From Thermotomaculum hydrothermale (GTDB taxonomy: Bacteria; Acidobacteriota; Holophagae; Thermotomaculales; Thermotomaculaceae): 64,000 nucleotides of DNA. The stretch lies in NCBI RefSeq assembly GCF_016592575.1, contig NZ_AP017470.1, positions 2,118,501 through 2,182,500 of the forward strand. The letters are read 5' to 3'. The notes beneath the pieces are model-generated. The model was not told the DNA's origin and did no database searches. It saw nothing but the letters and a program-made list of their open reading frames with translations. Shown in pieces: positions 6,477 to 11,626 of the stretch; the stretch's first letter is position 1, and every line of letters begins with the position of its first letter. The translations under genes were made by a program, and so were the position numbers.

Positions 6477-7161
6477 ATTAAAATCAGGACTTTACCTTGT
6501 TTCAGTCCCTATGGGCAACCCTGAAGACATTACATTAAGGGGATTGAGAATTCTTAAAAAGGCAGATGTTGTCTATGGGGAAGAGAGAAAGGCGGCTTAC
6601 AGGCTTATCCGTTCGCTAGGGATAAAAAGAAGCGACCTTGAATTTTTAAACGAGCATAATGAGGAGCAAAAGGTTGAGGAAATAAAGAAGGCTGTAATAG
6701 ATGGAAAATCTGTTGCATACTTTTCAGATGCAGGTGCCCCTGTTTTTTCAGACCCTGGTTTAAAACTTGTAAAGGCTTTCAGGGAATGGAATTTGCCGGT
6801 AACCTTTATCCCAGGTGCGTCATCTTTAATGAGCGGAATTGCTTTAAGCGGGTTTAATATGAACGAGTTTTACTTTGCAGGCTTTCTTCCGCGGAAAAAT
6901 GAAGAAAGAAAGAAAAAGTTAGAAGAGTTGAAAAAATTAAAAGTGCCAATTTTTATTATGGAAACCCCATACAGGCTTCAGCAATTGCTAAAGGCTATAA
7001 AGAATACCTTTGGAAAGGATAAAAGGATTTCCATTTTGTTTAATTTAACCTGTCAAGACGAAGAGGTTATTATTGATACTGTGGGAAATATCTTAAAGAT
7101 TGTTGGGGAAGAGAAAAACAGAAAACCCTTTGTCCTTGTAATTGAGGGGAGGAATGTATGA
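6448..7161 (+). CDS. rsmI: 16S rRNA (cytidine(1402)-2'-O)-methyltransferase
   Basis: Tetrapyrrole-methylase-fold protein with the RsmI motifs [18 protein letters not shown] at the N-terminus, [14 protein letters not shown] and [16 protein letters not shown], and FAGFLPRK. It 2'-O-methylates C1402 of 16S rRNA using S-adenosylmethionine. ATG codons at 6415 and 6418 exist, but an AGGGGA ribosome-binding site just ahead of GTG 6448 and the usual family N-terminus favour the GTG, giving 237 aa. That is short for the family (usually about 270-290), and the C-terminal domain seems reduced. It overlaps dut at its start and the cysteine desulfurase by ATGA at its end. Confidence 0.9.
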
Positions 7162-8288
7162 TTTACCTTGATTCAACAGCAACAACAGTTGTTTTAAAAG
7201 AGGTTGCAGACGAGGTTTATAAATATTTAACAAAAGATTACGGCAATCCATCCTCTTCACATAAGTTGGGGATAGAGGCAAACAAGCTTGTGGAAAAGGC
7301 AAGAGAGGTTTTGCTTAAAAGCTTGAAACTTGAAAACACCCACCTTTGTGTCTTTACTTCTGGTGGTTCAGAGGGAAACACCCAGGTTTTAAAGGGAGTT
7401 GCAAAGCTTTTTCCAGATAAAAGCATAGTAATTGGCGGTATTGAACACAATTCAATAAGAACTGCTGCAACAGATTTGCTTATAGAGGGGAAAAATATTA
7501 AAACTATTGAAGTTGAGAAAGACGGAAAGATTGACATAGAAAAACTCTTGAATTTAATTGACAAAGACACAAAACTTGTGTCAATTATGAAGGTAAACAA
7601 TGAAACAGGAATAATATTCAACATTGAGGAAATAGCAAAGAAGGTTAAGGAGAAAAACCCGTCCTGCCTTTTCCATACAGATTTTGTTCAGGGATTTATG
7701 AAAATAAAGGCTGATTTAAAACACATTGACTTTGTAACAATTTCAGCCCACAAGATATTTGCCCCCAAAGGTGTTGGTGCGCTTTTTGTTAAAAAGGGGA
7801 TAAACCTTCCATCTTTGATTGCAGGAAGCCAGGAATACGGTTTAAGGGGAGGCACCCACAATGTTGCGGGAATTGCAGGATTGAAAAAATCTGTTGAAAT
7901 TTTAAAGGATAAAGTGGATGAAAACTTTGAAAAAACACTGAATTTAAGAAAAGCTTTTAAAGACACCCTTGCAAACAATTTAGAGGATTTTGAAATATTT
8001 GAACCTGTTGATTTTTCTCCCTATATTTTAGGCTTATTTGCAAAGGGGATAGAGTCTGAAGTTATTGTAAGAATGCTTTCAGAAAAGGGAGTATTTATTT
8101 CAGCAGGTTCAGCATGCTCTGCAAAGGATAAGGTAAAATCAAAGACAATTCTTGCCTTAGGCTTAAACCCTGACGAGTATTTAAGAATATCCCTAAACCC
8201 TGTTGTAAACTCTGAGGAGGATGTAAAAACAGGGGCAAAGACAATAGCCGACACAATAAAAGAGTACAGAGAGTTGTTTATAAGTTAA
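7158..8288 (+). CDS. Cysteine desulfurase (NifS/IscS class)
   Basis: A 376-aa PLP enzyme of aminotransferase class V. The N-terminus YLDSTATT is typical, the PLP lysine is Lys199 in ISAHKIFAPKG, and the active-site cysteine is Cys320 in GSACSAKD. It takes sulfur from cysteine as a persulfide for Fe-S clusters and for thiolated tRNA; thiI, which needs such sulfur, lies 5 kb downstream. It starts by a 4-base overlap with rsmI. Its last eight codons (KEYRELFI) lie in a 23-bp sequence that is repeated after hicBA, so the gene's 3' end looks like an insertion site. No iscU or iscR is adjacent, so the exact subgroup is not fixed. Confidence 0.92.
   Translation: MIYLDSTATTVVLKEVADEVYKYLTKDYGNPSSSHKLGIEANKLVEKAREVLLKSLKLENTHLCVFTSGGSEGNTQVLKGVAKLFPDKSIVIGGIEHNSIRTAATDLLIEGKNIKTIEVEKDGKIDIEKLLNLIDKDTKLVSIMKVNNETGIIFNIEEIAKKVKEKNPSCLFHTDFVQGFMKIKADLKHIDFVTISAHKIFAPKGVGALFVKKGINLPSLIAGSQEYGLRGGTHNVAGIAGLKKSVEILKDKVDENFEKTLNLRKAFKDTLANNLEDFEIFEPVDFSPYILGLFAKGIESEVIVRMLSEKGVFISAGSACSAKDKVKSKTILALGLNPDEYLRISLNPVVNSEEDVKTGAKTIADTIKEYRELFIS
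8258..8280 (+). repeat. Direct repeat, left copy (desulfurase 3' end)
   Basis: A 23-bp sequence, identical to bases 8849-8871 except at one position (22 of 23). Here it encodes the KEYRELF tail of the cysteine desulfurase. The two copies bracket hicBA with a period of 591 bp. Confidence 0.85.
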
Positions 8289-8322
8289 TTTTTCGTTATA
8301 TTTAAAACAATAGTAACTTTTT

Positions 8323-8351
8323 TTGACTTTGTTTTTCCTTTTCGTTAAATT
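8323..8351 (+). promoter_or_regulatory. Promoter of hicBA
   Basis: TTGACT at 8323-8328 and TAAATT at 8346-8351 are spaced by 17 bases, directly ahead of a GGAAGGAG ribosome-binding site and the hicB ATG at 8369. A short direct repeat TTTTCGTTA occurs at 8290-8298 and 8339-8347, overlapping the promoter, and could be a binding half-site for HicB, which represses its own operon in known systems (inference). Confidence 0.5.
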
Positions 8352-8368
8352 ATAGGAAGGAGTAAGGT

Positions 8369-8590
8369 ATGAAAAAGCTTCATTTTCCTATTATAGTTGA
8401 AATTGATGAGGACGGTTATTACATAGTAAGTTGCCCAGTTTTTAGTGGGTGTCATTCCTATGGAAAAACGATTGAGGAGGCTCTTGAAAACATTAAAGAA
8501 GCGATTGAATTGTGTATTGAAGAAGAAAAAACGGAAAATGTAAACAAATTCGTAGGTTTCAGAGAGTTAGAAATAGAGGTTAATGCCTAA
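8369..8590 (+). CDS. hicB: HicB-family antitoxin
   Basis: A 73-aa protein with the HicB fold pattern: FPIIVEIDEDGYYIVSCPVFSGCHSYGKTIEEALENIKEAIELCIEE. This is the partial RNase-H-like fold that binds and blocks HicA. No separate DNA-binding domain is obvious, though the last 15 residues could contribute. It precedes and overlaps hicA by 8 bases, so the antitoxin is made first, opposite to the E. coli hicAB order. The module is bracketed by 23-bp direct repeats of the upstream gene's tail, which suggests that it arrived as a unit. Confidence 0.88.
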   Translation: MKKLHFPIIVEIDEDGYYIVSCPVFSGCHSYGKTIEEALENIKEAIELCIEEEKTENVNKFVGFRELEIEVNA

Positions 8591-8834
8591 GTTACCAGCC
8601 ATTGAGGGTGATGAATTTGTAAAATTCCTGCAAAAAATTGGTTTTGAAATTATTAGAACAAAAGGCTCTCATGTGAGATTAAAATCAAAAGATGGAAAAT
8701 ACACCACTGTCCCTGTTCACAAAAACAAAATTTTACCTAAAGGACTGCTAAGAAAAATTATAAGAGAGGATTTACAGATTGAACTAAATGAATTTTTAAG
8801 GCTGTATTCAGATTTTAAAAAAGGCAAGAAATAA
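8583..8834 (+). CDS. hicA: HicA-family mRNA interferase toxin
   Basis: An 83-aa protein with the double-stranded-RNA-binding-like HicA fold. The N-terminus LPAIEGDEFVKFLQKIGFEIIRTKGSH carries the catalytic histidine at residue 30 in the GSHVRLK motif, followed by the VPVHKNKILPKGLLRKIIRE segment. The family cleaves mRNA and stops growth until neutralised by HicB. All key residues are present, so the toxin looks intact. It overlaps hicB by 8 bases; the right-hand direct repeat lies just after its stop codon. Confidence 0.9.
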   Translation: MPKLPAIEGDEFVKFLQKIGFEIIRTKGSHVRLKSKDGKYTTVPVHKNKILPKGLLRKIIREDLQIELNEFLRLYSDFKKGKK

Positions 8835-8848
8835 TTGCTTATTTAACA

Positions 8849-8871
8849 AAAAGAGTACCGAGAGTTGTTTA
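8849..8871 (+). repeat. Direct repeat, right copy (relic of desulfurase 3' end)
   Basis: Second copy of the 8258-8280 sequence. In the matching frame it still reads KEYRELF-N-stop, and the single mismatch (AGA versus CGA) is synonymous for arginine. It lies outside any present gene, 15 bases before the convergent trmO. Confidence 0.85.
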
Positions 8872-8885
8872 ATTAAAACAATTTT

Positions 8886-9374
8886 TTAATTTTTTTCAAA
8901 CCTGCCGTCGTCTTTTGTGTGAGGGAGTTTTTTTACATTTTTTTCAAGCCAGCCGATTGATTTAACCTCTCTTAAATCAAATTCAGGAACAAAAGGTTTT
9001 ATGTCAAGTAATGGGGTGCCGTCAATTATGTCAACATCCTCTATCTCTAAAATATTCCCCTTTACCTTGTTTAATTTAACAACAGATAGCCCTATCCCGT
9101 TAGGCCTTTTGGGCGCCCTTGTGGCAAAGACTCCGTGAAAATTATTGTCCATATAAGGTTTTACCAGAAGAGAGTATCCCTTTGAAAGGTGAAAGTAAAA
9201 AATTAAGATAATATGGGAGAAGCCTTCAATGTCCTTCAATCCTTCTGTATAATCTTCAAACACTTCAACCGTGCCCTTTACACCTCTTGCCGCTTTGCCC
9301 TGAATGGGTGTTCCCTTCATTTCTTTAAATGGTGAGTGAATTATTCCAATTGGCCTGAATTTAATCTCTTCCAT
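8886..9374 (-). CDS. trmO: tRNA (adenine(37)-N6)-methyltransferase, TrmO/TsaA family
   Basis: A 162-aa protein of the TsaA/YaeB (UPF0066) family. It has the N-terminal FRPIGIIHSPF, the S-adenosylmethionine-binding motif FATRAPKRPNGIGLSVVKL, and GTPLLDIKPFVPEFD. E. coli TrmO N6-methylates t6A37 of some tRNAs. This copy is short and lacks the C-terminal extension of the E. coli enzyme, as in many single-domain homologues. The start has a GGGGGATAAG ribosome-binding site. It is a single minus-strand gene, convergent with hicBA. Confidence 0.88.
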   Translation of the reverse strand: MEEIKFRPIGIIHSPFKEMKGTPIQGKAARGVKGTVEVFEDYTEGLKDIEGFSHIILIFYFHLSKGYSLLVKPYMDNNFHGVFATRAPKRPNGIGLSVVKLNKVKGNILEIEDVDIIDGTPLLDIKPFVPEFDLREVKSIGWLEKNVKKLPHTKDDGRFEKN

Positions 9375-10478: not shown

Positions 10479-10503
10479 AAAGGGGGGAATTTTCCCCCTT
10501 AAA
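10479..10503 (-). terminator. Intrinsic terminator of the tandem paralogue pair
   Basis: A GGGGGGAATTTTCCCCCC-like stem overlaps the stop codon of the minus-strand gene. On the minus strand it is followed by a T-rich run, so it ends that transcript. In the plus direction a U tract is missing, so termination of the DUF4097 gene there is weaker. Confidence 0.7.
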
Positions 10504-11056
10504 ACATTTTGCCGATTGAAAATTCAAGTGTGTTTACCTTAATATCTCTTGTTAAATTAGTATCTCCTGTTCCTCTAAGTGAAATAACCCAGTTGTTTGT
10601 TGTAATATATTTAATTTCACCGTCCAGATCAAACTTAGTTGTTGAAAGATAAAAATTTCCTTCTTTCTCAATCCTCCATCTTGAAAATGAAAAACCAATG
10701 GTAGTTTGAATCCCTTTTCTTTCTTTCTTGTTAAAGCAAAAAAGCCAGCCTATGATGAGTTTTAAATGTATAACCCTTGAAGTTTTCCAGTCTTTAAAGT
10801 TACTTTTTCCTGTTCCCCATTCATTATACTCAAAAGTAATGTCAAGTGGAGCATTTTCAAAATAATAGTTTTGCCAATTTACCGCAATTCCTTTCCCTGT
10901 TCTATCGTTAACAATTTGTCTTAAGTCTCTGTTTGGTAAAACAAAGTTATAGTTTATTGTAAAGTAATTATTCTTCTCAATTGTTTGTGCTTGCAGGGGA
11001 AAAATAATAACCGCACTGAGAAATAGAATTAAAATAAATTTTAAATATTTTTTCAA
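10499..11056 (-). CDS. Secreted protein of unknown function, tandem paralogue B
   Basis: A 185-aa protein with a signal peptide ending FPLQAQ (residue 24). The mature part is rich in aromatic residues and alternating hydrophobic strands, such as FTINYNFVLP, DITFEYNEWG and IGFSFSRWRIE. This fits a small outer-membrane beta-barrel or a porin-like fold; that is inference. It is about 66% identical (123 of 185 positions, counted by hand, no gaps) to the gene 12 bases upstream. The start is TTG at 11056 with an AAGGGGGTG ribosome-binding site. I do not recognise the family. Confidence 0.65.
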   Translation of the reverse strand: MKKYLKFILILFLSAVIIFPLQAQTIEKNNYFTINYNFVLPNRDLRQIVNDRTGKGIAVNWQNYYFENAPLDITFEYNEWGTGKSNFKDWKTSRVIHLKLIIGWLFCFNKKERKGIQTTIGFSFSRWRIEKEGNFYLSTTKFDLDGEIKYITTNNWVISLRGTGDTNLTRDIKVNTLEFSIGKMF

Positions 11057-11068
11057 ATCTTCACCCCC

Positions 11069-11626
11069 TTAGAATCTTTTCCCAATTGAAATTATGCTTG
11101 TGTTTAGTTTAATGTCTTTTGACAGGTGCACTATACCTGTTCCTCTTGCTGAAAAAATCCAGTTGTTTTTAGTTATGTAACCTACTTCAATATCTGGACA
11201 AAACTTCGTTGTTGAAAGATAAAAGTTTCCGTCTTTTTCAATTCTCCACCTGTTAAAAGAAAAGCCAAGTACACTATATAACCCTCTTCTTTTTTCTTCG
11301 TGAATGAAGGAAAGCCACCCTATAAAAAATTTTGAATATACAACCCTTGAAGTGTTCCAGTCTTTAAATCTGCTTTTCCCTGTTCCCCATTCATTGTATT
11401 CAAAACTAATATCAAGGGGAAAATTCTTAAAATGATAGTTCTGCCAGTCAATCGAAATTCCTTGCCCCATTCTTTCATTTACCACTCTTCTTAAATCATA
11501 GTATGGAAATATAAAATTATAGTTAATTATAAAGTAATTATTCTTCTCAATTGTTTGTGCTTGCAAAGGGAGAATAATAACCGCACTGAGAAATAGAATT
11601 GAAAAGAATTTTAAAAATTTTTTCAA
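11069..11626 (-). CDS. Secreted protein of unknown function, tandem paralogue A
   Basis: First gene of a two-gene tandem duplication, 185 aa, same length as its neighbour without gaps. The signal peptide is MKKFLKFFSILFLSAVIILP then LQAQ. Best conserved between the copies are the signal peptide, the blocks FEYNEWGTGKS-FKDW and GFSF-RWRIEK, and GNFYLSTTKF. Least conserved is the middle stretch around residues 101-120, so that part may be a variable loop. It also starts with TTG (11626), with an AAGGGGGTGAAG ribosome-binding site. No homologue is recognised; a small barrel or lipid-binding shell is a guess. Confidence 0.65.
   Translation of the reverse strand: MKKFLKFFSILFLSAVIILPLQAQTIEKNNYFIINYNFIFPYYDLRRVVNERMGQGISIDWQNYHFKNFPLDISFEYNEWGTGKSRFKDWNTSRVVYSKFFIGWLSFIHEEKRRGLYSVLGFSFNRWRIEKDGNFYLSTTKFCPDIEVGYITKNNWIFSARGTGIVHLSKDIKLNTSIISIGKRF

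Follow-up and report, generated by a model that had tools for sequence, protein, structure and literature searches.

The window, by which we mean the whole stretch of 64,000 nucleotides of the Thermotomaculum hydrothermale genome analysed here, contains on its forward strand a gene for a cysteine desulfurase of the NifS/IscS type (nifS, 7158-8288, 376 aa; PF00266, E-value 2.5e-66), whose product ends in KEYRELFIS and which has orthologues in three congeners (G001, G003 and G004). It is followed on the same strand by a gene for a HicB-like antitoxin (8369-8590, 73 aa; PF15919, E-value 8.1e-12; PDB matches: 6g1c and 6g1n, both HicB, and 2yzt) and by an overlapping hicA toxin gene (8583-8834, 83 aa; PF07927, E-value 9.2e-19; PDB match: 1whz, E-value 8.9e-5), and on the opposite strand by a gene for a TrmO-like tRNA methyltransferase (trmO, 8886-9374; PF01980, E-value 1.6e-41). 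The 80-bp spacer between nifS and hicB holds a promoter-like TTGACT-17-TAAATT (8323-8351, forward strand), identified by pattern match and recovered in G001 by alignment; the same pattern has four sites in 8200-8950, with 2.3 expected. The adjacent hicA and hicB-like genes form a predicted type II toxin-antitoxin pair, which shares with the HicBA systems the combination of a HicA (PF07927) and a HicB-like (PF15919) protein and differs from them by its short HicB, which at 73 aa has no room for the C-terminal DNA-binding domain. The window's genome (G000) encodes a second, divergent hicBA (G000:C1:1238133-1238551; L078, 3134-3588) between an RHS-like ORF and apparent ATP synthase genes, around which (L065) no bracketing repeat was found. 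Another HicBA pair, from a different family (G262; L079, 398-803), includes a HicB 67% identical to that of the window and a HicA whose frame looks altered at the end.

The pair in the window is bracketed by a 23-bp direct repeat. The left copy (8258-8280, forward strand) belongs to the last codons of nifS, and the right copy (8849-8871, forward strand), located at a spacing of 591 bp in the 51-bp spacer between hicA and trmO, is identical to it in 22 of 23 bases. The left copy continues as I-S-stop, while the right copy is translated in frame as KEYRELF-N-stop (stop codon at 8874-8876), and the sole mismatch (AGA/CGA) is synonymous. Except for the I-S-stop continuation of the left copy, which is a correction, these features had been described in the earlier note together with the claim that only a promoter and hicBA lie between the copies, and direct comparison and translation bore them out: apart from the promoter-like site, the unit holds the HicB-like and HicA genes and no other ORF of at least 40 aa wholly between the copies, and neither its ORF list nor its Pfam scan revealed an integrase.

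A scan of the whole single-contig genome (2,317,141 bp) found no further copy of the repeat with up to 3 mismatches. Similarity by chance could be suspected in such an AT-rich genome, the more so as the window also contains looser matches (18 of 20), for the most part farther apart; however, no equivalent repeat appeared in 100 shuffles of the window sequence, only about 0.0004 such pairs are expected in the window at a spacing of 250-1500 bp, and the genome-unique repeat brackets exactly one cassette, in frame. On the strength of the shuffles, the uniqueness and the expectation we rejected chance, which we regard as extremely improbable. The only other pairs of such quality in the window lie within a tandem duplication of a gene (570 bp, 10.5-11.6 kb), where two tandem ORFs of 185 aa, near copies of each other at a spacing of 570 bp, are found on the reverse strand (10499-11626).

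Comparison with four congeners (G001, G002, G003 and G004) revealed both an empty and a filled site. In G003, which is another species, nifS is followed directly by trmO, with a single KEYRELF end and the two stops 8 nt apart; an empty site of this kind was what the earlier note had proposed to look for. G001 has the order nifS, hicBA, trmO as in the window, with alignable promoter DNA, and the right-hand repeat is absent there, the hicA stop being 2 nt from the trmO stop. The insertion had been said to be refuted if relatives all carried hicBA at this position with diverged flanks; G001 answers to this description, but G003 does not. G004 has an unrelated gene after nifS and no HicA match, and in G002 (an 83%-complete assembly) orthologues of nifS and trmO were not found.

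The synonymous divergence (dS) of nifS amounts to 0.44 between G001 and G003, which are each other's closest, against ~1.3 to G000. Between G000 and G001, dS is 1.31 for nifS, 1.74 for hicB and 1.14 for hicA, all of these values being near saturation. Since the dS of hicB and hicA is similar to that of nifS, hicBA appears to be old, about as old as the split of G000 and G001. Most simply, hicBA would already have occupied the locus in the common ancestor, with a later loss in G003, or its presence and absence would have been exchanged by recombination. A recent mobile insertion inherited together with the repeat was rejected, because hicBA is about as divergent as nifS and G001 has no repeat. 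For a neutral noncoding relic as old as the split, the probability of at most one difference in 23 is ~4e-5 (at dS 1.3) to 1e-3 (at dS 0.9); since 22/23 identity is so improbable for such a relic, the right copy must be recent, or must have been coding until recently.

We read the right copy as the original 3' end of nifS in a displaced position. With 9 nt separating its stop from that of trmO, compared with 8 nt in G003 and 2 nt in G001, the right side of the locus resembles the empty allele and the left side the filled one, and the product would be explained by recombination of a filled and an empty allele, homologous on one side and non-homologous on the other. The two differing copies likewise fit two source alleles; the earlier note had suggested that the incoming copy came from a related desulfurase gene. 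Alternatively, the right copy could be a local accident, in which template switching recently copied the nifS tail into the interval from hicA to trmO, unconnected with the arrival of hicBA. This would agree with the presence of hicBA without a right copy in G001 and with the 22/23 identity, which implies a recent event, but it leaves aside the position of the in-frame stop, which is near the empty-site layout, and the recurrence of the layout around other hicAB pairs beyond controls (see below), and we consider such an accident quite unlikely.

We surveyed loci with HicA or HicB matches in Acidobacteriota for direct repeats of at least 20 nt, with no more than 2 mismatches per 20, bracketing the match at 250-1500 bp. 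The two sets comprise 133 loci, 131 of them distinct (L050 and L144 are the same place, as are L058 and L163; all four are unbracketed); not all are verified complete pairs, and orthologous places in related species are included. In the first set, to which no filter for copy number or low complexity was applied, 9 of 53 loci were bracketed, the window counted in. In the second set, for which the criterion was fixed beforehand and the copy-number and low-complexity filters were added afterwards, 13 of 80 loci were bracketed compared with 76 of 2353 background positions (Fisher p 4e-6, with positions that overlap and are not independent). The copy filter (at least 3 copies) took L155, a genuine mqnE case, as well as L119 and L191 out of the 13/80 count, and with 1.5-kb flanks only, 16 of 80 loci were bracketed. 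None of 30 cold-shock gene controls was bracketed (p 0.02), these being largely from one genus and including one (L257) with a three-copy bracket that was filtered out. ParE loci were bracketed in 3 of 30 cases. One of these three (L285) lies between two copies of a 294-nt end of a DUF1501 gene, 285 of the nucleotides being identical, and another, a locus of a ParE-family toxin (L298), lies amid repeated relics resembling tRNA 3' ends, with no intact tRNA found.

A duplicated end of a neighbouring gene was recognised at 12 of the 131 distinct loci, L155 counted in. Six of the nine brackets of the first set coincide with gene ends, namely nifS, a class V aminotransferase 3' end (L084), a tRNA-Leu 3' end, nearly identical over 60-odd bases (L110), a xylose isomerase 5' end (L092), a FadB-like gene (L083) and a GroEL 3' end (L091); L045 (which adjoins a run of N), L097 and L105 were not demonstrated to be gene ends. 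Among ten annotated brackets of the second set, five correspond to gene ends: NuoG 5' (L126), 3' of a menaquinone biosynthesis decarboxylase of the UbiD type (L188), MqnE 3' (L153), a CAAX-protease-like gene (L189) and the 5' part of an acetyl-CoA hydrolase/transferase-like gene (L159). The rest of the 13 brackets comprises intergenic repeats (L118, L152), ambiguous cases (L148, L151, L167) and brackets left unannotated (L124, L136, L138). L188 has a third, more distant copy of its repeat, the pattern that serial displacement would leave. In seven pairs of copies, 26 of 42 mismatches fall at third codon positions (p 2e-4), and despite this bias at least 12 codons carry amino-acid changes. The layout does recur around other hicBA loci, where the earlier note had called for a search, and inspection of the ORF lists by eye revealed no integrase between the repeats.

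The gene beside L153, in genus g48, is mqnE (aminofutalosine synthase; TIGR03700 above cut-off), and short matches confined to its C-terminal part were counted by eye in 22 of 41 genomes. From these 41 genomes 21 mqnE loci were picked after inspection of the matches, partly because matches were present; 16 of the 21 contain displaced C-terminal pieces of mqnE downstream, 34 pieces in total (78-254 nt), most of which extend to 25 nt or less from the stop. No fixed att core was found among the 34 displaced ends, whose left edges lie anywhere between 78 and 254 nt ahead of the stop. Judged by eye, the genes 3' of mqnE vary between g48 species even at loci where no displaced end was found (L224, L228, L231 and L235; genomes G408, G404, G293 and G183).

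We scanned 58 of the 105 ORFs of the mqnE loci against Pfam and PADLOC. Among the matches listed, the ORFs between mqnE ends include Uma2 (6), TPR proteins (4), DUF4258 (3), DUF433 (2), PIN (2), HicB-like proteins (2) and DNA methylases of two families (2 each). Two of the 58 ORFs are Y1 (IS200-like) transposase genes, so mobile elements may have a role in the arrays; no integrase family was found among the best 25 of 57 and the best 25 of 141 families. Genes for HicB were recognised in seven mqnE loci, and in four species the start codon of hicA overlaps the stop of the preceding mqnE end, restored or displaced. Of the 34 displaced copies, 23 are nearest to the mqnE of another species, the foreign reference being the best of 20; a site test of own versus foreign source at p<0.05 assigned five copies to a foreign source and one to its own, which is suggestive only.

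Among the 21 g48 mqnE genes the synonymous difference is ~0.40 over codons 1-280, decreases to 0.18, 0.16 and 0.27 in codons 281-340, and climbs again over the final 28 codons (0.43 and 0.62). Genus g46 (30 mqnE genes) exhibits no dip (0.49 in the last 88 codons vs 0.48 in the body), and no clear displaced ends were found there in the search of 41 genomes, nor any extra matches in the loci, with a query that is only ~50% identical and could miss some. A dip followed by a divergent tail is the pattern that homologous entry via the gene end predicts, with the tail arriving together with the cargo; a distance-correlation test for a decoupled tail gave a weak signal, to which we attach no weight.

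A recombinase site under selection would equally give the dip in mqnE, so that the profile itself leaves room for an integrase. According to such an explanation hicBA would be a minimal site-specific integrative element, a miniature cis-mobilisable unit between attL and attR, served by an integrase acting in trans at the 3' end of nifS. The topology is indeed identical to that of an insertion at a gene 3' end, with a parallel at the 3' end of tRNA-Leu, and mqnE codons 281-340, conserved at the nucleotide level, could serve as the site. However, the hicBA unit has neither an integrase nor identical att cores of fixed extent, either of which would mark a CIME or another site-specific element, its copies differing at one base, and in G001 the insert is present without the right repeat. 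Because the displaced mqnE ends vary in their edges and lengths, and because ends of unrelated genes, both 5' and 3', are used, we disfavour this explanation and consider it unlikely.

We assign a similarly low probability to an insertion with long target duplication, as in restriction-modification systems, in which tens to hundreds of target bases are copied upon insertion and the copies drift apart. The sizes and the logic of the cargo match, as restriction-modification units have long, variable duplications of ~100 bp according to a review, and DNA-methylase genes are present in the mqnE loci. The locus in the window has a direct target repeat around a module that is single in the empty allele, albeit with an empty allele from another species (G003) and with 23 bp at the short end. 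On the other hand, drift of copies made on the spot fits less well with the preference of mismatches for third positions, with the five displaced ends that fit the gene of another species better, and with an mqnE 3' region homogenised across species.

The best explanation overall, which we consider somewhat more probable than not, is that hicBA is a toxin-antitoxin module of patchy distribution that has long resided 3' of nifS, at a site prone to exchange, that the repeat is a scar of later recombination between hicBA-bearing and hicBA-free alleles, and that the locus belongs to a recurring class. The incoming DNA would have consisted of a nifS 3' end with hicBA and would have entered by homologous pairing inside nifS; the incoming end would have completed nifS, so that the end already in place (KEYRELF-N-stop) came to lie, displaced, after hicA and before trmO. 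On the far side, the join could be illegitimate, if the DNA was linear, or could result from single-crossover integration of a small circle that carried the gene end and the cargo. The shared length at the nifS locus is just 23 bp, which is short for RecA pairing, and pairing would have to lie farther upstream in nifS, unless the remaining homology has decayed. The recurring class in Acidobacteriota would comprise toxin-antitoxin, DNA-methylase and similar modules between restored and displaced ends of neighbouring genes, sometimes in arrays. The two copies, the empty and filled sites, the divergence values, the recurrence beyond controls, the arrays and the dip in mqnE are observed; we infer that homologous recombination was the engine, which way the event ran and what topology the DNA had when it entered. 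We favour recombination through gene ends over site-specific integration.

The view of the earlier note, that a minimal toxin-antitoxin element inserted at the 3' end of a gene and restored it, gains from the empty site, from the appearance of the displaced end and from the recurrence of the layout. A recent, self-mobile element that works like an integrative element at a tRNA gene is not supported, given the filled G001 site without the right repeat, the nifS-like divergence, the variable mqnE edges and the pattern of homologous exchange. More tentatively, as a generalisation that is plausible but falls somewhat short of probable, we propose an integrase-free cassette system in Acidobacteriota, in which short defence and toxin-antitoxin modules travel with the final 80-250 bp of a core gene attached, come in through a homologous crossover inside that gene, complete it and displace older ends into integron-like arrays, the nifS-hicBA locus being a single-cassette case.

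These observations bear on the transfer of chromosomal toxin-antitoxin pairs from genome to genome where no mobile element is involved. The same layout in related bacteria suggests that ordinary gene ends can give small defence modules a recombination route into genomes. If ends of core genes act as ready-made homology arms, a module can do without a recombinase, the gene at which it arrives stays intact, co-expression with that gene is possible, and the scar left behind can be dated; one could then count gains and losses of modules in sequence data and test them in laboratory bacteria that are naturally transformable. In titles and abstract openings (subscription work being mostly beyond reach) we found no account of toxin-antitoxin arrays at the ends of core genes.

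Several known systems share part of this layout. CIMEs and other integrative elements at the 3' ends of tRNAs or other genes restore the gene end and leave a displaced copy on the far side, as seen here, whereas the unit in the window has no integrase and a cargo of only ~0.6 kb, and its mqnE parallels have no fixed left edge. Integron gene cassettes are inserted serially beside a fixed anchor; the arrays described here resemble them in the serial insertion at an anchor and in a cargo that lies mostly on the strand of the gene (by eye), and differ in that the recurring element is the 3' end of a host gene and no integrase was noticed.

Insertion of restriction-modification systems with long target duplication was reportedly described by Nobusato in 2000 and Furuta in 2010. 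According to further reports (PMC3874152, PMC3031569, PMC1643837), these systems duplicate long target stretches of variable size when they insert, around 100 bp in one review. This is the closest precedent, being likewise a small addictive module with no recombinase of its own and with long, variable direct target repeats, while the present cases differ by their toxin-antitoxin cargo, by a repeat that represents the restored end of the neighbouring gene, by frequent synonymous differences and by arrays of displaced ends. Repeats of at least 5 bp flank 10-18% of the small variable segments in three species, according to another study (PMC2884548).

In the T6SS immunity arrays of Vibrio cholerae, displaced effector ends have been explained by a mechanism that resembles homology-facilitated illegitimate recombination (PMC5361080). 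These arrays agree with our loci in the upstream homologous anchor, the inserted module, the old end pushed downstream and the serial arrangement, and differ in that their displaced ends come from the toxin gene itself, whereas those described here come from core metabolic genes or tRNAs. The layout at the nifS locus is compatible with a product of homology-facilitated illegitimate recombination, with one homologous and one non-homologous join, and the case in the window is a toxin-antitoxin variant of an already described type of event.
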